Shown: positions 1 through 60,591 of the stretch, one piece after another
Position numbering within the stretch: position 1 is the stretch's first letter
Layout of the letters: each line of letters opens with the position of its first letter
Source of the DNA: Medicago truncatula
Taxonomy: Eukaryota > Streptophyta > Magnoliopsida > Fabales > Fabaceae
DNA length: 64,000 nt
Direction of reading: 5' to 3'
NCBI RefSeq assembly: GCF_003473485.1
Contig: NC_053043.1
Span: 134,001 to 198,000 of the forward strand
Made by a program: the position numbers and the translations under genes
Notes under the pieces: model-generated
Told to the model about the DNA's origin: nothing
The model's database searches: none
Seen by the model: only the letters and a program-made list of their open reading frames with translations

Positions 1-120
1 TGTTGTCACAACACAATTAAGCCACACCAGTATTATTTCAGAAAAGAATCGTAGGGGCCACAACACAATTTGAATCAAAAACCAAATGATATAGACGCTA
101 ATAAGTTATTGATTAACTAC

Positions 121-1164
121 CTTTATGGCCCAGGAAAATGACCGGACAGTTTCATCTCGCAGTAGCACACAGCCAAAGAAGCAGGGCATTCCATAATTAT
201 TTATCCCAACCCATAACCCCAGCGGCATGTCAAATGCAGTGAGACGATGTGTTGTATCAAACACCACAGCATCACCGAAGATATCATACAATTGGATGGA
301 TGAGGCATAGGACCAGGCAATATTTTCTAAACGGTTGTTTGCATCAAGTGTGTACTCAAATTTAAAATTAGGATCTTTGTCCTTAATATTTCTGCACATT
401 CTTAACAAATCTAGGGTTTCTTCTTCTGGATCTAATTTTCTAAATGACTGGAGTAAATTCCTTACGTCCTTTTCAGTAAAAGGCAAATATCCAGGTTCGA
501 CGCACTTCTCAAGCTCCATAAGTCTCATCATTTGATGAACAGAAATCCCTGTTTTGGCAAACATAAGGATTCGATTTTTGTCAGCATCTGATATAGTTCT
601 GTATGCAGGAAGGAATCGAACTTGGTTTGGTTCCAAAAGTTCATGATTATGGTGGTTGGCAAAACCAGTGACGCGCCATTCTGGAGGCCCAAATTCAGTG
701 GTTTTGCTTATGCGCATATAAGCCTGACAACCACATCTGGAAGATTTTCTATTTCGTTGAGGTTTAGTTTGGGTTGATGATTTGGCAGGAGTGTTGCCAG
801 CACGGTGACAAACAAAGTAGCGTCTAGTAAGTCCTTTGCCAACACCGTCTTTTCCTTCAGTACGATGACGTCTAATAGAGAAGCCGCAGGTCTTGGCAAA
901 ATGAGTATAGAAGTCATAAGCAGCATCGTGCGTGGGAAACATTTGACCGATGTATGGAATGTGATGATGAGTTGTTGTTGTTGGGTCCACCAAATGGAGT
1001 GTGGTTTGATGAGAAGGGGAGTCTTCTGTGCTGCTTGTATCGCATCCTCCTCCTCCTCCTCCTCCTCCCAAATGTTGGTCAGAAGGATCATCGTCAACAT
1101 CAACATCAACGTCATCGTCATCATAAACTACCAACATGGATCCACCCGCCGCCTCTTCAGACAT
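121..1164 (-). CDS. FRS11-like: FAR1-related sequence protein (FRS11-like), first coding exon, partial
   Basis: Start ATG at 1164 (minus). 348 codons are open down to AAG at 121-123, followed by a GT donor (GTAGTT), so the rest of the gene lies left of the window. The N-terminus is Asp- and Gly-rich. About residues 70-175 form the FAR1 DNA-binding zinc finger (WRKY-GCM1 type), with an RRHRTEGKDGVGKGLTRRYF stretch, Cys residues in FVCHRAG and RCGC, and the HNH histidines. From about residue 255 the MULE-transposase-derived domain begins (DAVVFDTTHRL, then WVGINNYGMPCFFG). FRS proteins are domesticated Mutator transposases acting as nuclear transcription regulators, with FHY3 and FAR1 in phytochrome A signalling. 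The resemblance to Arabidopsis FRS11 is strong from memory; the exact orthologue is inference. Confidence 0.9.
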
Positions 1165-48403: not shown

Positions 48404-48558
48404 AATTGATATAATACTGGTGAAAGTTTTTCCTTCTTGATAGGTTTGGTTTTGCCCTCTCTATTGGTAGACTTATCATTTTGTGAGTTATTTGTTCTTG
48501 CTGCCTAATTTCACTACACTAAATAAGTACACAACCAACTTTTGTAATAATAAACGAG

Positions 48559-50073
48559 ATGAATTCTGACTTTGTGTTCTCTGCCCATGACCCAACCAAC
48601 TTGCACCAATCAAAAAAGCCACCTGATACTATCAAGCAATCATCCCAAAAGCCATCCTTCCGTGACAAATTGCTAGAATCCAACCAAGATATTCCAATCC
48701 GCGAGAAAGAAAACATGATCGAAAAGAAACTTGTTCGAATCGAATTGGAAGAAGGTAACCGCCTTCTCCCTAAAATCTACATTGAGCCGCAAACTTTCCA
48801 AGAGTTGTGCACACCTTGGAAGGACGCTTTGGTCGTGAAATTGCTAGGGAAAAGTCTCGGTTACAACACAATGAAGGATCGTCTCCAAAAGATTTGGAAA
48901 CTCCAAGGAGGATTCGACATCATGGACAATGATAACGGGTTCTTTATGGTAAAATTTGATCAAGCCGCAGATAAGGAGAAAGTTATCACTGGGGGACCTT
49001 GGCTAATCTTTGACCACTGTTTAGCTGTTACTCATTGGACTCCGGAATTTGCTTCTCCAAATGCAAAGGTTGACCGCACAGTAGTTTGGGTACGTTTTCC
49101 TGGTTTAAATCTCGTTTACTATGATGAAAGCTTTTTGCTCGCAATGGCTTCGGCTCTAGGTAGGCCTATCAAGGTTGACACCAATACCCTGAAAGTTGAA
49201 AGGGGAAAATTCGCGAGAGTCTGTGTTGAAATTGATCTCACTGTCCCGGTGGTGGGGAAAATATGGGTGAACGGTCACTGGTACAAGGTTCAGTACGAAG
49301 GCTTGCATCTAATCTGCACAAACTGTGGTTGTTACGGTCATCTTGGGAGAAATTGCATGGAAAAACCTTCAACTTTTGATCCGAGGTCCCCTAACCACCA
49401 CACAGCCGGCGGCAACAACCCACCATCCAACCCTGAACCGTCGCAGCCAAGACAAAACCCGACCCAAACCTGTCCAGATGCCATTAACTCGCAATTAATG
49501 GCTTGCAACCAAAACGGTAACTCAATCATTGACCACAATAAAGATGTAACTGCTAACAAAAGAAATGCAATTAACAGAATTGATGACAATCAAGTGCTGC
49601 ACGGCGACTGGCTGGTAGTTACTAGGAGAAAGAAAACACCAATTCAACACTCCTTGAATGCCTCAAAATCAGTTACTCATAAGACTAACAGATTCCAAGC
49701 CCTATCCACTATGACTCACCATGACAAATCGGCCCCCATCAACAACAAATTCCCCTCATGGTCTAAATCCCAAGAAATACCACGTGCCAACAACAGATCA
49801 ACTGAAACAAAGAGACGTAGACAGGAAGATTTTTATGAGCCAATAGCCAAAAATTTATCAACCAATGACTCTAGGCATATTACTATTCTTGAGCCGGTCC
49901 TTAGCCTTAAAACTAAAGACACGTCAACCTCCAAAATTGACATAACCCAACCCCACTCAACTGAACACGTGACCAACCCTTCTCAGAACAACCATGAACC
50001 TGTTACCACTTACACTGAGGACGATACCATTCCTGACCCTTCTTCTTCCATGCCCCAAGATACTCCTATGTAG
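48559..50073 (+). CDS. LINE ORF1: DUF4283 nucleic-acid-binding protein, 504 aa, intact
   Basis: Starts MNSDFVFSAHDPTN. Residues about 75-220 form the DUF4283 domain (LVVKLLGKSLGYNTMKDRLQ, GGPWLIFDHCLAV, VDRTVVWVRFPGLN). A CCHC zinc knuckle CTNCGCYGHLGRNC follows near residue 254. The remaining half is a Pro/Asn/Ser-rich linker. Plant L1 ORF1 proteins bind the element RNA to form the retrotransposition particle. No stop or shift is seen, in contrast to ORF2. Weak reading in the Pro-rich half limits function calls there. Confidence 0.9.
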   Translation: MNSDFVFSAHDPTNLHQSKKPPDTIKQSSQKPSFRDKLLESNQDIPIREKENMIEKKLVRIELEEGNRLLPKIYIEPQTFQELCTPWKDALVVKLLGKSLGYNTMKDRLQKIWKLQGGFDIMDNDNGFFMVKFDQAADKEKVITGGPWLIFDHCLAVTHWTPEFASPNAKVDRTVVWVRFPGLNLVYYDESFLLAMASALGRPIKVDTNTLKVERGKFARVCVEIDLTVPVVGKIWVNGHWYKVQYEGLHLICTNCGCYGHLGRNCMEKPSTFDPRSPNHHTAGGNNPPSNPEPSQPRQNPTQTCPDAINSQLMACNQNGNSIIDHNKDVTANKRNAINRIDDNQVLHGDWLVVTRRKKTPIQHSLNASKSVTHKTNRFQALSTMTHHDKSAPINNKFPSWSKSQEIPRANNRSTETKRRRQEDFYEPIAKNLSTNDSRHITILEPVLSLKTKDTSTSKIDITQPHSTEHVTNPSQNNHEPVTTYTEDDTIPDPSSSMPQDTPM

Positions 50074-50239
50074 GTCAACGACAAAGCAATACTGGCCCAT
50101 AACTCTCATGCATTAATGCAGAATGATCATGTAGAATCTGTCACTTACAGTGATACGGCGCAAGCAAGAGCTCAGACTCTAGGGACGAGGATATGGTCTC
50201 CTAGCCCTATTCTCTATCTCTTTTTCCCTTGGTTTTTTA

Positions 50240-53200
50240 ATGGAAGCCCTCCTTGACACCACTATCCTCTCTTGGAACATTAGAGGGGCAAATAATAGTA
50301 AAGCCAAAAGACAATTAAGGGAAATGATCAGAAAATACAGACCTTCATTCCTTGCTATCCTTGAAACCCATGTTCCATTTGCTAGACTTTCCACGTTCTG
50401 GAATTATAACGGTTACACCCATGTGCACATCATTGAAGCCAACGACCACTCTGGAGGAATCTGGCTGCTCAAAAAAATTACCGAAAATACAACTTCCTTC
50501 ATTCCTTTCAGATTTTAACAACTATTCCATAACTTTTACAGTTAAGGGAAATGATCAGAAAATACAGACCTTCATTCCTTGCTATCCTTGAAACCCATGT
50601 TCCATTTGCTAGACTTTCCACGTTCTGGAATTATAACGGTTACACCCATGTGCACATCATTGAAGCCAACGACCACTCTGGAGGAATCTGGCTGCTCAAA
50701 AAAATTACCGAAAATACAACTTCCTTCATTCCTTTCAGATTTTAACAACTATTCCATAACTTTTACAGTCAGCCTTGGTGACGCCATAACGACCTGTACT
50801 TGTGTGTATGCCAGTCCCAATGCCACTATGAGAACCCCCTTTTGGACCTATCTTTCCGACCTTAACCGATCCATAGCTGGCCCCTGGATGTTGATTGGAG
50901 ATTTTAATGAAACTATTCTTCATAGTGACCAAAGAGGAGGAATCTTCAATCATTCTAGAGCTGCTATTTTCTCCAACTTCATGGCTGATTGTAATCTCTT
51001 GGACCTCACTGCTATTGGCGGTCGTTTCACTTGGCACCGCAATCATAATGGTCATCGCATTCTCTCTAAGAAACTTGATCGTGCCATTGCTAATGTTGAT
51101 TGGAGGCTTTCTTTCCCAGAAGCCTTTATAGATGTACTCTGCAGAACCCACTCTGATCATAATCTTATCCTCCTCCGGTTTGGTGGCCTCCCTCAATCCA
51201 GGGGACATAGACCCTTCAGGTTCGAAGCGGCTTGGATTGGTCATGTAGACTATGCTAATTTAGTTTCTAACGCCTGGAATTCCTCAAATCACAGCACCTC
51301 TGTAGCGCTTAACAAGGTCAGAGAAAACTCAATCATTTTCAATAAGGATGTTTTTGGTAATATTTTCAAGCGTAAAAGGCATATTGAAAACCGTCTTAAA
51401 GGTATTCAAAGGCATCTGGAAACAGTTGATTCTTTTAGGCACTCCCTTATGGAAAAGGAGCTCTAAAAAGAATACAATCACATACTTTTCCAAGAAGAAA
51501 TGTTTTGGTATCAAAAATCAAGGGAAAAGTGGGTCAAATTTGGTGACAAGAATAGCTCCTTTTTCATGCTCAAGCTATTATTAGAAGGAAAAGGAACATA
51601 ATCCATAGGCTTCAGCTTCCTAATGGCAACTGGTCCACTGATAACTCTACCCTTCAAGAAGAAGCTCAAAGATTTTTCAAAAATCTTTTCTGCGGTAACC
51701 ATCATAACCTTGACCACCACTTTAATGTGGGCCCCCACCCTACCATCAACGAAAATGATAGGTTTTCTCTAACTAAACCCATCACAAAAGAAGAAGTCTC
51801 AGCAGCCCTTAACTCTATGAAACCATATAAGTCTCCTGGCCCAGATGGTTTTCAATGCATCTTTTTCAAACAATATTGGCACATTGTTAGAGAAGATATC
51901 TTCCAGCTTGTCTCTACAGCCTTCCACACGGGCTTCTTCGACCCCACCATTTCAGAAACCCTCATTGCCCTTATCCCTAAAATCGACCCCCCCCCCCCCA
52001 AACCTACAAAGATTTTCGGCCTATCAGCCTTTACAACATAACCTACAAAATCATTACCAAAGTCATTGTGCATCGTCTCCGGCCGATTCTTAATGATATT
52101 ATTGGTCCCTACCAAAGCAGTTTCCTGCAAGGTAGGGGCACTTCTGACAACTCTATTGTTTTGCAGGAAATTGTTCATTTTATGCGGAGATCAAAAAGGA
52201 AAAAAGGTTACGTTGCTTTCAAACTTGATCTTGAGAAAGCTTTTGACAATGTGAATTGGGAGTTTCTTAGATCGTGTCTCCAAGATTTTGGTTTCCCGGA
52301 TGATACAATCAAACTCATCATGCATTGTGTCACTTCTTCAACATTCTCTGTTCTTTGGAATGGAAACAAATGGCCTCCTATCAAGCCTACTCATGGTCTA
52401 AGACAAGGTGACCCTTTGTCTCCTTACCTATTCATCATCTGCATGGAAAAGCTCTCCCTTGCCATTAACAAAGCGGTCCACGAAGGGGAATGGGAACCTA
52501 TCCGGATGTCCGCCTCCAGCCCCCCTCTCTCACACCTTCTCTTTGCGGATGACGTCCTCCTTTTTACTAAAGCTAAGAACTCTCAACTTCGGTTCATCAA
52601 GGATCTTTTTGATCGCTTCAGCAAAGCCTTGGGACTCAAGATAAACCTCTCCAAATCTAGAGCTTTCTACTCCGGTGTCCCACATCAAAAGATCATCAAT
52701 CTTACATCCATATCCGGTATTCGTAGCACAACTTCTCTTGGTAAGTATTTGGGTTTTCCTATCCTTAAAGGGAGACCGAAGAGGAGTGATTTTCTTTTTA
52801 TTATAGAGAAGATGCGGAATAGGCTTGCTACTTGGAAGAATAAACTCCTCAACAAAGCAGGTAGATTGGCTCTTGCTTCCTCGGTTCTTGCTTCTATCCC
52901 TACCTATTATATGCAGATTAACTGGCTCCCTCAAAGCATTTGTGTTAATATTGATTAGACAACACGCAATTTTATTTGGAAAGGCACTAATAGAAGAGGT
53001 GTTCACCTGGTAGGGTGGAAGAAAATTGCGATGCCTAGACATCTTGGAGGGTTGGGTATCAAATCAGCTCGAGAGGCGAATACTTGTCTATTAGGGAAAC
53101 TAGTTTGGGAACTTTTTCATAATAAGCACAAACTTTGGGTGTCTCTTTTAGCTGCTAAGTACACAGCAGGGCCAAATTTACTAAATGCTTCCATCACGAG

Positions 53201-54548
53201 CAGCAGCTCCCCTATTTGGTCCTCCATCATCCGTGCCAAAAATGTTCTCATCAGTGGATACTCGTGGCGTCCGGGATCAGGCTCTTCTTCATTTTGGTTT
53301 ACTCATTGGAGCGAGTTCGGTCCTCTATGCTCTCTTGTCCCCATCATTGACATCCATGACCTCCACCTAACGGTTAAGGATGTTATTTCTAACAATCAAA
53401 GGTCCCTTATGTTGTACACTCCTCTTCCTCAAGCTGTGACCGACTGCATTAATACTATTAATTTCAGATTCAACGATGCCATTGAGGACGTCTTCATTTG
53501 GCCTCATAACAAAAATGGTACTTATTCCGCAAAAAGTGGTTACCAGTGGCTGCTCTCCCTCTCCGGCAATGACAACAACACACATTCCTGGTCTTGGATT
53601 TTGAAGAAAAAAATCTCGGAAAAATACAAATTCTTAATTTGGCTGGCTTGCCATGACTCCCTCCCTACCGCAGCGCTGCTTCATCACAGACAGATTATTG
53701 CTTCTGCGACTTGTGCTCGGTGTGGTGTTTCTGATGAATCTGTTTTTCATTGCATCCGTGACTGTCCTTTCTCCAAGATTATATGGCACCACATTGGTTT
53801 TTCGGAACCCTATTTCTTTGCTGTAACAGATATTGAAATTTGGTGCAAGAGTGGATTAATAGGCAGCAAAGCTATTTTGTTTGCAGCAGGGTTATGGTGG
53901 ATTTGGCGGAGTCGCAACGCGCGCTGCATGAGCGAGGAATCCATGCTGCTTCAGAGGTTGGCCGCGAATATTACATATTTCGTCGACGACATTAATTCAT
54001 GCTTCTTTCAGCCCTTGCCGGTGATGGTTTCGGATAGATATGTCAAATGGAATAACAGCAATTTTAACTGTACAATTCTGAACGTTGATGGGAGTTGTAT
54101 TGGTTCTCCGATCCGGGCAGGTTTCGGTGGTTTAATTCGAAACAGTGTTGGCTTCTATCTGTCAGGTTTTTTAGGATTCCTTCCTTCTTCCTCTGACATT
54201 TTATTAGCAGAACTGACTGCTATATATGATGGTATCAACACCGCAATTGACATGGGCATCACAGATATGGCGGTTTATTCAGATTCTCTCCTTTCAATTA
54301 ATCTCATCACTACCACCAGTTCAAAGTTCCATATTCATGCGGCCCTAATCCAAGATATCAGAGACAAGCTTTCTCTAAGGAATTTTTCGCTCAACCACAC
54401 CCTCCGGGAAGGAAATCAAAGTGCTGACTATTTGGCTAAACTAGGTGCAATGTCAGATGTCAACGTTCTAATACACCAGTCGCCTCCGGATGAACTCTGC
54501 CCTTTGTTGAAGAATGATGCAGCAGGAACCTTGTTCCTGAGATCTTAG
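50240..54548 (+). pseudogene. LINE ORF2: endonuclease, reverse transcriptase, RNase H; multiply broken
   Basis: Endonuclease: ILSWNIRGANNSKAKRQLRE near 50260, GPWMLIGDFNE near 50880, then RTHSDHNLILL. Reverse transcriptase: KPYKSPGPDGF, LQGRGTSDNSIV, FKLDLEKAFDNVNWEFL, GLRQGDPLSPYLF and the catalytic FADD at 52542-52553. The zf-RVT follows (CARCGVSDESVFHCIRDC, about 53715), then RNase H (LNVDGSCIGSPIRAGFGG from about 54080). Breaks: a 227-bp tandem duplication (50315-50768), TAA at 51464-51466, a shift near 51570, a shift at a run of 12 C (51987-51998) and TAG at about 52956. From 53031 to 54548 the frame is uninterrupted. Confidence 0.92.
50315..50768. repeat. 227-bp perfect tandem duplication within LINE ORF2
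   Basis: Copy 1 at 50315-50541 and copy 2 at 50542-50768 appear identical. 227 is not a multiple of 3, so the endonuclease frame is broken. Confidence 0.95.
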
Positions 54549-54627
54549 TTTCCTTTCTGTTTTATTTGTTTCCTGTTTTTTTCGTTTTCTTTTCTTCTGT
54601 AACCAAAAAAAAAAAATTGATATAATA

Positions 54628-54932
54628 AATAGTTTAAAAATAAGTATGAAATTGATAGTAAATGATTAAATACATGATTAACTTGACAATTTAATATAGT
54701 AAAAAAATTTCATGAAACATTTATAATCTGATAGATTTAGTTGAGAACGCTTTACAAAGTTAGAAATTAATTTAATGACTTACTTACTCTTTAAATCTTT
54801 TTGTTCTTTCAGAAAAATAACTATTTGTTTTGTGATAGTGTAAATCAATCGGTAGCTTTCAAGAAACATCATCGTTTATCAAATGAACTTATATGTAGAA
54901 TGCATATTTTTAAATAAAATTTTGAACAAAAA
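54628..54932. other. Spacer between LINE and Helitron
   Basis: 305 bp of AT-rich DNA with no feature; presumably the original genomic sequence. Confidence 0.4.
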
Positions 54933-55244
54933 TCTATAATCTCTTATCTCTTATTCCTAAACAAAGCTTGGTTGCCCTAATTTTAACCTAATATTTTAAC
55001 CTAATATTTTAGCAACTTTTCCCTCCTTCAAAACCTAACCATATTTCCTAATTCCCCTCCTCGAAACCCTAACCATGATTTCCTAACTTCACTCCCCCTA
55101 AAACCTATCTAATTGATTTCCATAAACCATATCTCCTAACTCCCCTCCTCCAAACCCTCACCAATATATTTAAATCCTTTCTCCTAAACCGAAATCTATT
55201 TCTAAAACCATACCTTTCTCTTAAACCGAAATTTCTTAATCAAC

Positions 55245-55690
55245 ATGGCTTCCAGAAACATTCAAACTTTGTTGTCATACCACTACCTCACTGGTAACCA
55301 TATCTTCATTCCACTCTGGTTTAAACTAAATATATAGATTTTTGCTCTTATTCCTCGCTGTTTGAAAGTATAAATCATTCTTTCAATCCCTTTCAATCTT
55401 TTGTAGGTCCGTTGGTGAAAAACTCTTTTTCCGATCTTGACAAAGCAATCAACAAGCTCAGACTGAAATACAGATCATATATCGTTGAATATGACATTGA
55501 TGTTGTATGTGTTTTTTGCGAAATATACCTATTCTTAATTATTTGCATTCTATTTTATCAATGTTTGTGATGTTTTTGTTTGTTATTTTTTTAGGGTGCA
55601 GTATGCTTGCCAAACATGTTTGGCGGTGATTTCGGAGATCAAATTGGGCGCTATGCAATATTGACTGATCCTAAGTCCAACAAGGTGTGA
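55245..55690 (+). CDS. Small unrecognised protein or gene fragment in the Helitron, 80 aa
   Basis: Exons 55245-55293, 55407-55504 and 55595-55690 join in phase: MASRNIQTLLSYHYLTG, LVKNSFSDLDKAINKLRL, GGDFGDQIGRYAILTDPKSN, then a TGA. A further in-frame-looking KIRGDAPMVGSHDTIYLDV stretch ends at 55758, so an internal part has probably been deleted. It faintly resembles legume B3-like DNA-binding proteins, but I cannot name the family with confidence. Its position next to an RPA1-like gene inside Helitron ends suggests capture or an accessory gene. Confidence 0.45.
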
Positions 55691-56091
55691 AGATCAGAGG
55701 GGATGCTCCGATGGTTGGGTCACATGATACCATCTACCTTGATGTTATTTACAATTAGTCCATGTTTAGATAAATTGTGCAAGACCTTTTCAATTTGAAT
55801 TTTAAGTTTTAGTTTCTTAAAGTTTTGGAAGCATCTATTTTTTTTGTCTTTGAATTTAGCAAATGTCCCTTGAATTTCATAAATAATTTAGCCTTGCTTG
55901 CTTTGCTTTTTGATTTATATATTTGTGTTTGTTTTTGTGTTGCTGAATCAATTTAGTAGCATGGTTGTGTTACTGAAGCATTTTAGTAACATGGCTTTTA
56001 GTAACATTATTAGTAACAATTACTAGAATCAATTTAGTAGCATAGTTGTGTAACGTCTCCTCTTAACATTATTACTAACAATTACTAATCC

Positions 56092-57175
56092 AAATCTATA
56101 AAATATGTTTTGGGTGGAAACAAACTAAAATCCTAATCCTAATTTCTCTCAATCAAGTAACTAAGAGATTTCATCCACATCTCTAAACTAACTTTTTGGT
56201 GGAAAGAAACTAAAATCCTTATTTCTCTCATTCAAATAATTAGGGAATTTCATCCACATCTCTAAAATATGTTTTGGGTGGAAACAAACTAAAATCCTAA
56301 TCCTAATTTCTCTCATTCAAGTAACTAAGAGATTTCATCCACATCTCTAAACTAACTTTTTGGTGGAAAGAAACTAAAATCCTTATTTCTCTCATTCAAA
56401 TAATTAGGGAATTTCATCCACATCTCTAAAATATGTTTTGGGTGGAAACAAACTAAAATCCTAATCCTAATTTCTCTCATTCAAGTAACTAAGAGATTTC
56501 ATCCACATCTCTAAACTAAGTTTTTGGTAGAAACAAACTAAAATCCTTATTTCTCTCATTTAAATAATTAGGGGATTTCATCCACATCTTTAAAATATGT
56601 TTTGGGTGGAAACAAACTAAAAATCATAATTCCTCTCATTCAAGTAACTACTAAAGATTTCATCCACATCTCTAAAATATGTTTTGGATGGAAACAAACT
56701 AAAAATCCTAATTCCTCTCATTCAAGTAACTACTAAAGATTTCATCCACATCTCTAAAATATGTTTTGGGTGGAAACAAACTTAAATCCTAATCCTAATT
56801 TCTCTCATTCAAGTAACTAAGAGATTTCATCTACATCTCTAATCTAACTTTTTGGTGGAAACAAACTAAAATCCTTATTTCTCTCATTCAAATAAGTAGG
56901 GGATTTCATCCACATCTCTAAAATATGTTTTCGGTGGAAACAAACTAAAAATCCTAATTCTTCTCATTCAAGTAACTAAGAGATTTCATCCACATCTCTA
57001 AAGTAACTTTTTGGTGGAAACAAACGAAAATCCTTATTTCTCTCATTCAAATAAGTAGGGGATTTCATCCACATATCTAAAATATGTTTTGGGTGGAAAC
57101 AAACTAAAAATCATAATTCATCTCATTCAAGTAACTATTACACATTTCATCCACATCTCTAAAATATGTTTTGGC
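56092..57175. repeat. Minisatellite, about 13 units of 78-87 bp
   Basis: Units share GGTGGAAACAAACTAAAATC, TCTCTCATTCAA and GATTTCATCCACATCTCTAA. Two types alternate for much of the array, one with AAATATGTTTTGGGTGG and one with ACTAACTTTTTGGTGG, giving a dimeric period of about 165 bp. Non-coding and inside the Helitron. Confidence 0.92.
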
Positions 57176-57476
57176 GAATCAACTATGGTAATTCTTAAGT
57201 AAAAAAAAATGTAAATTCTTAATTAAAACAAAGTGCCCCATCAACAATATTAATTTCATTTTATTCATATTAATCTTTATCCTAAAATGTTGGCCACTTC
57301 CTAATTTTGTTCCACTATTTTGTGCTTATCCTGATAACTAATACTCTTTATTGCTCAACCGACATATCCTACTCACACATATTCCACCTTTTTCCTATAA
57401 ATATATCATAACCTATTAGCCAAACCATCTCAATCTAAATAAGCATCCTCTTTCTTGGAAAGGAAAAAACAAGCCA

Positions 57477-59035
57477 ATGATGTCTGCCAAATACACTCCA
57501 ATCTCAGCTGTTTCTGGAGGAAGAAAGAATCTCAAGATGTGTGTGCGAGTTGCTCACATTTGGTTGATTCGAGAGAAGAAGGTCCCCACTAGCATCATTT
57601 TCATGAACATGTTACTGGTCGATGAAAAGGTTTCTGCATGTTTGCACTCTTAACTTTAAAATTAAAGTAATGTCATTTTTGTTTTTTAGTTATGTAATTT
57701 AACCAGCTGTTTAATGTTGTTGTTGTCGTCAACAGGGTGGACGTATTCACGCCACAGCTAGAAAAGATTTGGTGGCAAAGTTCAGGTCCATGGTTCAAGA
57801 AGGGGGTACATATCAGCTTGAAAATGCAATTGTAGATTTTAATGAAAGTCCTTATAAGGTAACTTCACACAAACATAAGCTTAGTATGATGCACAATTCA
57901 ACTTTTACCAAAGTACACTTGCCTGCTATCCCTATGAACGTTTTTGAGTTCAAGCCATTCAATGAAATTCTCTCTTCAACTGTCGAGGAAGTATCTACGG
58001 GTAGGACTTGAATTCTGAATGTGTGTTGTACATTATTTCTACCTATAAGCATTCGTTTAGGAATTTCATACATTTGGTTTTGCTTTTGTATACGTAATTT
58101 CAGATGTTATTGGTCATGTAATTGAAAGAGGTGATATAAGGGAAACTGAAAAGGACAGAAGGAAAAGCAGGGTTATTGATCTCACTTTAGAAGATCTTGA
58201 GTAAGATTTGTCTCTTTCTTTGTACCTGGTTGTAATATAATTTTAATATACCTTATGTTTCTGAATTGATATTTTGGTAATATTTTATTACAGAAACAAC
58301 CGCTTGCATTGCTCTCTTTGGGGTGAACATGGCGACAAAATTGTGACCTTTTTTGGCAACCATGACAACGACACACCTACTATATTGATATTGCAGTTTT
58401 GCAAGACACGCGTGTATTTAGGTATGTCGTGTTTTAAGTTTTTGCTTTCTGCTGATATCAACAATGAAATGGGAAATTATGTTCACTTGCTGTTGATTTT
58501 TAAAAAAATTAGGTGCTATGGGAGTTGTTAATGCCTTTAATGGGACTAAGCTGATACTTAATGGCGATTTGCCTGATGTCGCTGCGTACATGACACGGTA
58601 ACCATTTATATTTTCATATGCTTTAGAATAAAGACAAGTTTTTTTGGTCATAATTAAGTTGTCTGGAGGTCTCACCACTCTTCTATTAACATTGGTGCCA
58701 TTTTATTAGAATGAAAAATGCATCAATACAGTTCACCCGAAGTGTCAGCCAAATTTCAACGAACAGCTCCGCGTCTTTATCAGATGACTTGCTCAACACT
58801 AACCGAATGACAATTGAAAGCATGATTGAGTCAACTGAGGTAGCTATCTATTTATTGAAATTTTTAGATGTCGTTTTGGATTCATCTTTGTTATTTTTCA
58901 CATGGACAGTTGTACATTGCAATATCACAGGTTACTTCGAGGGGTGGTTTAAAGATATTGATTAATGACGACGACGGCGATGATACCGATGTTGCATCAA
59001 GTGTGGTCTACAGAGAAGTTTTCCGTAATGTGTAG
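57477..59035 (+). CDS. RPA1-like single-strand DNA-binding protein (OB folds), 7 exons, 320 aa
   Basis: Exons 57477-57629, 57736-58000, 58104-58200, 58294-58421, 58513-58597, 58710-58839 and 58931-59035 give 321 codons, all with GT-AG borders. Residues about 1-135 match the first DNA-binding OB fold of plant RPA70 relatives (LKMCVRVAHIWLIREKK, GGRIHATARKDLV, YKVTSHKHKLSMMHNSTFTK). About 140-240 match the second (DVIGHVIERGD, NNRLHCSLWGEH, TPTILILQFCKTRVY, GTKLILNGDLP). The C-terminal zinc-binding OB fold of true RPA70 is missing. Such short RPA1-like genes are typical plant Helitron cargo and were proposed to help single-stranded replication intermediates. No disabling mutation is seen. Two consecutive ATGs open the ORF. 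Confidence 0.88.
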
Positions 59036-59364
59036 GACTTTTTTGGGTACTATTCATTTTCTTACTTATTGAAAGTATTTGCATGTCAACGAACTTCAGT
59101 TATAGGAACTACGTACTAGAATTATGGAACAATAACAAAGTCTATGGTAATTGTCATTTTGCTTTGATTCACGACAATTTTTACATTCAAGCGAACTACA
59201 GTGTCTTATTTTTTCAGTGAGTATTAATTTTTTTAAATGACACGTGCGTTAGCACGGGTCAATGGTCTAGTATTACAAAAATCTCTCCAATAACATATTC
59301 AACCCTAATAAAACAATGTATTTATAAAGTAACATCAAACGTGTGATGATTTAAAAAAAATAAA

Positions 59365-59365
<1 letters not shown>

Positions 59366-59402
<37 letters not shown>
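59366..59402. repeat. (AAT)n microsatellite
   Basis: About 12 AAT units in the RABD1 upstream region, followed by the putative promoter and leader to 59549. Confidence 0.93.
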
Positions 59403-59403
<1 letters not shown>

Positions 59404-59549
59404 GGAAAAGAAAGTAAGCAATGTTGAGTTAAAGTTAGATTTACGGAAAGAAAAGTATTAAGCGGCGAGTTGAGTGGAGAATTGGGAAAGAATAGAGTTT
59501 GAATTGAATTGAAGACAACGAAAGGCATTCATTCATTCATTACTTCACT

Positions 59550-60591
59550 ATGAGCAGCAACGAATAGTAAGTTTTGTTGGTTCAATCAACTGAGTGACTC
59601 TATGATTCATTGTTTGATTTTGATTTTGATTTTGATTTTGATTTTGATTTCAGCGATTACCTGTTTAAACTTTTGATAATCGGAGATTCCTCCGTTGGAA
59701 AATCTTGCTTGCTTCTCAGATTTGCTGTCAGTTCTCTCTCTCTCTCTCTCTCTCTCTCAGATAGATTAGATCTTCTTTCTTTTTTCATTCATTCACCAAA
59801 CAAAACCCTTTTCTTCTTTCTTTTTCAGGATGACTCATATGATGACACCTACATTAGTACCATCGGCGTTGATTTCGTAATTAACTAACTAATTCACACT
59901 CTATTCTTTTCTATATGTTTCGTACGCTATGCTATTTTGATTTTGACTTTGATGGCAGAAAATCAGAACTGTTGAACTTGAAGGCAAAACCGCCAAGCTG
60001 CAGATTGTTAGTTCTCTTTTCTCATTACTTTTTTAATCATAATCATAAGTAATTACTTAATTACTACTTTGTTTAGTGGGATACTGCTGGACAGGAGCGA
60101 TTCAGGACTATTACTAGCAGTTACTATAGAGGAGCACATGGAATCATTATTGTTTATGATGTCACTGATATTGAAAGTTTCAACAATGTCAAACAGTGGT
60201 TACATGAAATTGATAGATATGCTAATCACTCTGTCTCCAAGCTTCTTGTTGGGAATAAATGTGATCTCACCGACAACAAGCTTGTTCATACCCACACTGC
60301 CAAGGCATTTGCGGATGAGCTTGGTATCCCTTTCCTTGAGACAAGTGCTAAAGACTCCATCAATGTCGAGCAGGCTTTCTTAACTATGGCAGCTGAGATT
60401 AAGAACAAGTAACTACCTTCCTTCCCATGGCTATTCTCCATTTATGTTTCTTTCATTACTCTCAACCTTATTGGACCTTCTTGATTTCAATATACAGGAT
60501 GGGAAGTCAACCAACTGGTAGTAAGTCAGCAGCAGAATCTGTTCAGATGAAGGGGCAGCCAATCCAACAGAACACCAACTGTTGTGGTTAG
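59550..60591 (+). CDS. RABD1: RABD1-type Rab1 GTPase, 6 exons, 203 aa
   Basis: Exons 59550-59566, 59654-59726, 59829-59876, 59959-60006, 60077-60408 and 60498-60591; 204 codons, the usual Rab1 length. G boxes: GDSSVGKSC (P-loop), effector [24 protein letters not shown] (switch II), GNKCDLT and ETSAKD. The C-terminus [11 protein letters not shown] plus Cys-Cys-Gly gives the geranylgeranylated pair. [14 protein letters not shown] and the [10 protein letters not shown] tail favour the RABD1 over the RABD2 subgroup. Rab1 proteins act in ER-to-Golgi transport. Intron 1 ends in a (GATTTT)n run immediately before the acceptor, and intron 2 starts with a (CT)n run. Confidence 0.96.

Follow-up and report, generated by a model that had tools for sequence, protein, structure and literature searches.

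Among plant Helitrons, an element that codes for an RPA protein without RepHel has been described in rice. In the parts of that report available to us, the putative mother element of the DHH_Mothra family is 6544 bp long and encodes an RPA of 472 amino acids in eight exons, the only complete gene among 323 fragments (PMC4683698). The same parts present Mothra as a RepHel-less, RPA-coding Helitron that has a RepHel-bearing sister family with similar ends and for which a semi-autonomous level was modelled (PMC4683698). Here we analyzed a 64,000-nucleotide stretch of Medicago truncatula DNA (contig NC_053043.1, positions 134,001 to 198,000 of the forward strand), hereafter the window, in which a first-pass annotation had marked a Helitron with an intact RPA1-like gene as cargo. 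The flagged stretch is a real Helitron of the canonical plant type and a nonautonomous member. We are highly confident that the element is an internal-deletion derivative of a larger plant Helitron, the parent of which carried a B3-like gene, RPA and RepHel, and that it multiplied in a recent burst, probably with RepHel acting in trans. The parent Helitron was probably self-sufficient.

The window copy was compared with 30 loci fetched from the genome (14 young and 16 older), giving a set of 31 copies. The complete copy in the window is 4324 bp long and occupies 54947..59270 on the forward strand, between a host A at 54946 and a host T at 59271, with ends common to copies that have differing flanks. 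On the same strand, its 5' terminus at 54947..54964 is TCTCTTATTCCTAAACAA (older subfamilies read TCTTCTTATTCC...), a subterminal hairpin TGACACGTGC-GTTA-GCACGGGTCA lies at 59238..59261, and the 3' terminus CTAG at 59267..59270 was placed by the copies and by a genome search with the last 31 bases. The hairpin and the CTAG followed by T, both seen in the first-pass annotation, held up. A 50-nt DNA fold gave the hairpin -10.5 kcal/mol and a z score of -5.9, with 0 of 200 shuffles as good, and CTAG|T follows at 59267-59271; the end at 59270 stands. The window contains a single match to the pattern GCACGGGTC..CTAGT, and 100 shuffles contained none. When the rule was loosened to a 5-bp stem preceding CTRRT, the window had 6 matches where chance predicts 5.9, so that a hairpin and CTRR alone are little proof; for the stricter CTAGT form of the rule, 0.25 matches are expected in the window.

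All 15 young copies, the window copy included, share the start TCTCTTATTCC and the end TGGTCTAG, with the 5' TC and 3' CTAG of plant Helitrons. A 5' end at 54933, as first proposed, was thereby ruled out: the copies begin at 54947, 14 bp further in, and the TC noted at 54933 is flanking DNA. In the window alone the 5' end was ambiguous, with 15 A|TC sites in 54628-55244 and 3 of them within the composition change-point interval 54918-55022. Among the 29 copies with both ends located (L025 and L033, in which one or both ends are missing, were left out), the right-flank base is T in 29 and the left-flank base is A in 26 (14 of 15 young and 12 of 14 older). In one exception, L010, the 5' part is duplicated and the inner start does have A; in the other two, L029 and L031, the start is ambiguous owing to short TCT repeats, and A|TC lies just upstream. 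The element therefore has the TC and CTRR ends, the G+C-rich hairpin near the 3' end and the A|T insertion without target duplication of a canonical plant Helitron. Two features of Helentrons or Helitron2, insertion next to T and an AP-endonuclease domain, were not seen: the target is A|T, and Pfam found no such domain in the RPA or small-ORF (open reading frame) proteins.

Other loci with both ends, which the first-pass annotation had proposed looking for, were found in a 430-Mb, 42-contig assembly as independent copies with different flanks. Among the best 31 of 283 candidates scored, the window copy and at least 14 others matched at 100% (rounded) and more at about 90-96%. By RPA exon 2, there were at least 17 young copies at 96-97% identity among the best 125 of 1220 candidates. 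Allowing 3 mismatches at most, a genome search found 183 matches to the final 31 bases with the host T and 160 to a 32-base core of the 5' end, the reversed control giving 0 in both cases. Twelve single-unit young copies (L014, L016 and L017, which carry duplications, were left out) differed from their consensus by a mean of 0.11%, with 0 to 9 substitutions each, indicating very recent movement. With a substitution rate of about 7e-9 per site and year, the young burst is roughly 0.16 million years old. Recent activity, which the first-pass annotation had suggested, is thus borne out by the near-identical copies, their low divergence and the paralogous empty sites described below.

The copies could instead have arisen by segmental duplication or be an assembly artefact, and a few of them do share flanking repeats (L002/L029, L011/L030/L026 and L013/L018). 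However, these shared flanks are repeats hit by separate insertions of different copies, and the same ends occur on six contigs in the 15 young copies and on eight in all 31, all of chromosome size, which leaves such an origin hardly credible. Transposition was also visible in empty sites. For 28 insertions, 80 bases of each flank were joined and searched against the other fetched flanks, and 8 of the 28 joined flanks had a match spanning the junction. The junction was clean in at least one match for six of these (L006, L011, L016, L023, L026 and L030), the empty site of L023 reaching 97.5% identity over 160 bp with no gap; for L013 and L029 the spanning match was gapped at the junction. The remaining 20, the window's own insertion included, had no spanning match in the other fetched flanks. 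The plain A-T empty sites predicted at the outset were therefore seen for copies other than the window's own; those found are paralogous and lie inside repeats, and none is orthologous. The flanks of L009, L011, L013, L016, L023, L026, L029 and L030 show insertion into tandem or dispersed repeats, and some flank arrays resemble the 5' end of a different Helitron family, ATCTTCTTATATATTAAAGTTAAC..., in multiple copies, an assignment made by eye. In L009, L010, L014, L016, L021 and L022 the element itself shows either several 5' ends or a tandem duplication close to its 5' end. At C5:25224401-25230461, the 3' ends of two young copies are separated by 4266 bp, and from the match positions the pair is probably arranged head to tail.

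The RPA-like frame in the element is open over seven blocks, 963 nt between 57477 and 59035, with GT..AG at all six junctions and an end 235 bp before 59270, as had been described; 0 of 2000 Markov sequences of the same composition gave a stop-free frame. Six of the blocks are exons of an RPA1-like gene at 57477..58839 on the forward strand (57477-57629, 57736-58000, 58104-58200, 58294-58421, 58513-58597 and 58710-58839), covering DBD-A, DBD-B and the linker towards DBD-C. In Pfam the six exons matched DUF223 (3.2e-13) and, below cut-off, REPA_OB_2 (0.008), and in PDB the frame matched RPA chains. Since DUF223 also matches human RPA70 (3.1e-8), in addition to a stretch of 4gnx below cut-off, this name alone is no marker of a Helitron RPA. 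The match to TIGR00617 (7.3e-15; 54.5 bits, below the cut-off of 334.2) covered model positions 178-444 of 608: the frame ends after DBD-A and DBD-B, and DBD-C is absent. The open frame and its splice junctions thus stood, but the gene does not look intact, and the last of its blocks is a piece of RepHel. An RPA homologue is present and RepHel absent, as in Mothra-type elements, though the RPA is truncated. Pattern searches for RPA relatives gave no match in viral contigs and 25 matches in prokaryote genomes, none of which was confirmed.

Alignment to relatives placed the junction between RPA and RepHel. RPA homology (to L034) stops at 58896, within intron 6, and helicase homology (to L036) starts at 58894, which leaves a TTT overlap at 58894..58896 on the forward strand. 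From there to 59035 on the same strand, the remnant of the RepHel C-terminus that had been read as exon 7 is 86.6% identical over 142 bp to the final part of an uninterrupted helicase frame on C1. Searched alone, this tail had no match in Pfam and two weak matches in PDB, a PIF1 helicase and an AAA ATPase (E 0.76 and 1.5), over the same stretch, which we take to be helicase motif VI. At six loci (C1 twice, C4, C6 twice and C7; paired by eye), a RepHel N-domain lies no more than 5 kb ahead of this tail. Because the tail matches the C1 helicase end and follows the RepHel N-domain at these loci, we assigned "exon 7" to RepHel. The junction is carried by all 31 copies examined. The seven-exon model depends on an acceptor AG at 58929-58930; all 15 young copies have it, and the 16 older ones all lack it and read CGG. 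RepHel in the element is limited to about its last 45 codons, no stop-to-stop frame of at least 100 amino acids exists anywhere in the element, and the earlier description of an element lacking Rep/Hel was correct. These alignments indicate that DBD-C and almost the whole of RepHel were lost in the founder.

The relatives that retain RepHel suggest where the RPA came from. At C3:22469642, a relative (L034) matches the element's RPA with 79% DNA identity across 939 bp and has a RepHel N-domain 6 kb downstream on the same strand; its order is a B3-like gene, RPA with DBD-C, then RepHel. Its DBD-C matched PF08646 at 1.3e-10, above cut-off, with the exons joined by hand and X at one stop. On C3, C1 and C9, RPA and RepHel share a strand, with some 6 kb between them. 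The C1 relative has an open helicase frame of 562 amino acids (PIF1, 2e-84 on 462 of them), no stop in the three RepHel frames listed there, an RPA that is 73% identical to the element's in exon 2, and last 27 bases, GTGCGTTAGCACGGGTCAATGGTCTAG, that are identical to the element's 3' end. Two further loci, C2:4960146-4964174 and C8:26058371 (both on the minus strand), have the exact 3' terminus and a 561-amino-acid open helicase frame with no listed PF14214 match nearby; at the C2 locus the 5' core is 4 kb away. From this arrangement, both are possibly helicase-only derivatives.

To call the RPA cargo, as the first-pass annotation did, implies that a host RPA1 gene was captured by the Helitron. 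The RPA1 homology is clear in Pfam, PDB and TIGR00617, and the capture of gene pieces is a known behaviour of Helitrons. However, among relatives at 72-77% that do not belong to the family, some lie ahead of RepHel in the same orientation (no host RPA1 was in the comparison), and the RPA frame is fused to RepHel itself. With the close match to the C3 relative's RPA, upstream of RepHel on the same strand, the cargo claim is not supported, and host capture is highly improbable. Instead, the RPA looks neither captured nor intact: as aligned, it resembles the RPA of RepHel-bearing Helitrons, cut after DBD-A and DBD-B.

The same comparison accounted for the small gene that the first-pass annotation had listed as unknown. 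A small ORF of 80 amino acids does exist at 55245..55690 on the forward strand (exons 55245-55293, 55407-55504 and 55595-55690), and searches of PDB and Pfam with it gave no meaningful match. Its exons 1-3 match the gene upstream of RPA in the C3 relative (L038, L037), the third exon of which reached 26.2 bits (7.7e-6) against Pfam B3, short of the curated threshold of 30.1. In copy L023 the B3-like gene is 376 bp longer than in the window element, and the longer stretch is kept in 6 of 31 copies (L021, L022, L023, L025, L029 and L031). The 376 bp were lost at an AAG present on both sides (55682-55684); the small-ORF frame then stops early, and the last exon of the B3-like gene (55682..55758, forward strand) is out of frame after the internal deletion. 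A frameshift by a TG duplication was considered as the cause and rejected, since 21 of 21 copies with the stretch read alike (the 10 others had no match over 400 bp) and the 376-bp deletion explains the change of frame. By these alignments, the small ORF is a truncated remnant of a B3-like gene. A minisatellite with units of 79 and 164 bp, also placed inside the element by the first-pass annotation, was located at 56088..57174 on the forward strand by a repeat scan of the window.

We then analyzed selection on the RPA frame, using a midpoint-rooted tree of the 31 copies with changes placed by parsimony. Internal branches carried 41 nonsynonymous (N), 10 synonymous (S) and 2 stop changes, and terminal branches carried 79, 18 and 8, respectively; the neutral expectation is 72% N, 24% S and 3% stop, an N:S ratio of 2.97:1. 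Over the whole tree, coding and noncoding rates per site were alike (0.055 and 0.063 on internal branches, 0.109 and 0.105 on terminal branches). Purifying selection on the RPA as a whole was therefore rejected, and the earlier suggestion of selection on the cargo was not upheld, one consensus comparison (below) showing fewer coding changes. Of the 15 young copies, 13 have an open frame, and neutral decay at 0.11% divergence predicts about 82-90% of frames intact (hand arithmetic from disabling rates). Since the RPA frame is without purifying selection at the amino-acid level, its openness is explained by youth.

Some observations weigh against our reading of the element as a deletion derivative with a passenger RPA. 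The element's 5' end was not found in the RepHel-bearing relatives, with no match in L037 or L038 (C3). At 88 RepHel places, taken from 126 rows of the genome search, none of the 100 listed 3' termini (of 183) lay within 40 kb downstream, and the terminus of the C1 relative is known only from L036. The L034 RPA carries a stop in DBD-C, so that this relative's copy is itself damaged. The older and young consensus differ at 8 coding positions out of 960 and at 23 noncoding positions out of 907 (Fisher p 0.0057), which hints at some constraint on that branch; 7 of the 8 coding changes are nonsynonymous, and p was 0.38 and 0.08 when the consensus comparisons were repeated on a second subgroup. An unbroken coding frame is also found in 6 of 16 older copies, all of them without the intron-6 acceptor.

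It could be proposed that the element is a semi-autonomous helper, in which a shortened RPA (DBD-A/B plus the helicase tail) is expressed, binds single-stranded DNA, promotes transposition of the family and is kept by selection. Three observations would fit this proposal: 13 of the 15 young copies retain the frame, the acceptor on which the chimeric frame depends is in every young copy and no older one, and coding changes between the older and young consensus are fewer than noncoding ones. On the other hand, the internal N:S of 41:10 is about 1.4 times the neutral expectation, 2 stops fall on internal branches, the count of open frames is what neutral decay predicts, and DBD-C is lost; we consider a helper role unlikely. 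More doubtful still is the idea that the change from CGG to CAG in the helicase remnant created a splice acceptor and turned a dead fusion into a chimeric protein (DBD-A/DBD-B plus helicase tail) that helped trigger the recent burst. If true, a transposon would have re-invented a helper from its own wreckage.

Returning to the nonautonomous derivative, we propose that the parent, judged by the C3 relative, had the order B3-like gene, RPA (DBD-A, -B and -C) and RepHel. One deletion, established by alignment with the relatives, joined RPA intron 6 to about the last 45 RepHel codons at the TTT overlap and so removed DBD-C with nearly all of RepHel; a second, also read from alignment, gutted the B3-like gene. 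As the copies show, the founder kept its Helitron ends and passed through older bursts before one lineage burst again very recently. Movement most likely relied on RepHel acting in trans, made by relatives whose 3' terminus matches. The ends would be nicked at TC...CTAG, with the 3' hairpin as terminator, and a single strand would be transferred into an A-T dinucleotide. The truncated RPA frame, a predicted protein, would probably be a passenger.

The Helitron ends 279 bp before the start codon of a Rab GTPase-like coding sequence (judged by eye; window 59271-59550) and is thus probably in the promoter region of that gene. A long interspersed nuclear element (LINE) at 48404-54627, with a DUF4283 ORF1, reverse transcriptase, an RNase H-like domain and poly-A, lies 320 bp upstream of the Helitron. 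The 13-base repeat AATTGATATAATA at 48404 and 54615 looks like the target-site duplication of the LINE, which also carries a 227-bp tandem duplication (50311-50769). A FAR1/MULE-transposase-like gene was recognized by Pfam at window 106-1164 on the minus strand, and scanning the window with Rfam at its gathering threshold and for tRNAs gave no match.

In the literature on RPA-bearing, legume and Medicago truncatula Helitrons, seen mostly as titles and abstracts, no title or abstract dealt with this element. It offers a further clear example of the step proposed from rice, in which loss of RepHel leads to an RPA-only Helitron. Added here are the junction, the identified RepHel-bearing relatives and a derivative that itself multiplied. 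As parent-type relatives and derivative coexist, the need for RPA in Helitron transposition, and for which of its domains, can be tested on natural variants. The locus also illustrates that when a transposon is young, selection cannot be read from an unbroken frame.

As far as the available parts of the source go, the closest known system is the rice Mothra mother element, which codes for RPA and lacks RepHel (PMC4683698). The two share Helitron ends and RPA without RepHel. Mothra has a related RepHel-bearing family with similar ends (PMC4683698); here the last 27 bases of the RepHel-bearing C1 relative are identical to the element's, and the 5' end was looked for in the C3 relative and not found. 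Tandem repeats, which are reported in nonautonomous members of the Mothra family (PMC4683698), are present in this element too. Unlike Mothra, which the same parts describe with many copies without RPA, the RPA-bearing element itself multiplied recently here, and its RPA lacks DBD-C and is fused to a RepHel tail at a located deletion junction (PMC4683698). In the portions of a second source that we consulted, the autonomous ZmhelB1 and ZmhelB2, which carry RPA DBD-A, -B and -C together with Rep/Hel in one element and so represent the parent type, share the CTAG end and the A|T target, whereas the element described here is without Rep and all but the end of Hel (PMC3288121). The gene order also differs, RPA being downstream of the helicase there (PMC3288121) and upstream of RepHel in the relatives here. 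The RPA of a mite Helentron (358 amino acids), as given in the available text, likewise has DBD-A and DBD-B homology, but Helentrons are described there with an AP-endonuclease, subterminal repeats, palindromes and T-rich sites, in contrast to the A|T target of this Helitron (PMC4067079).

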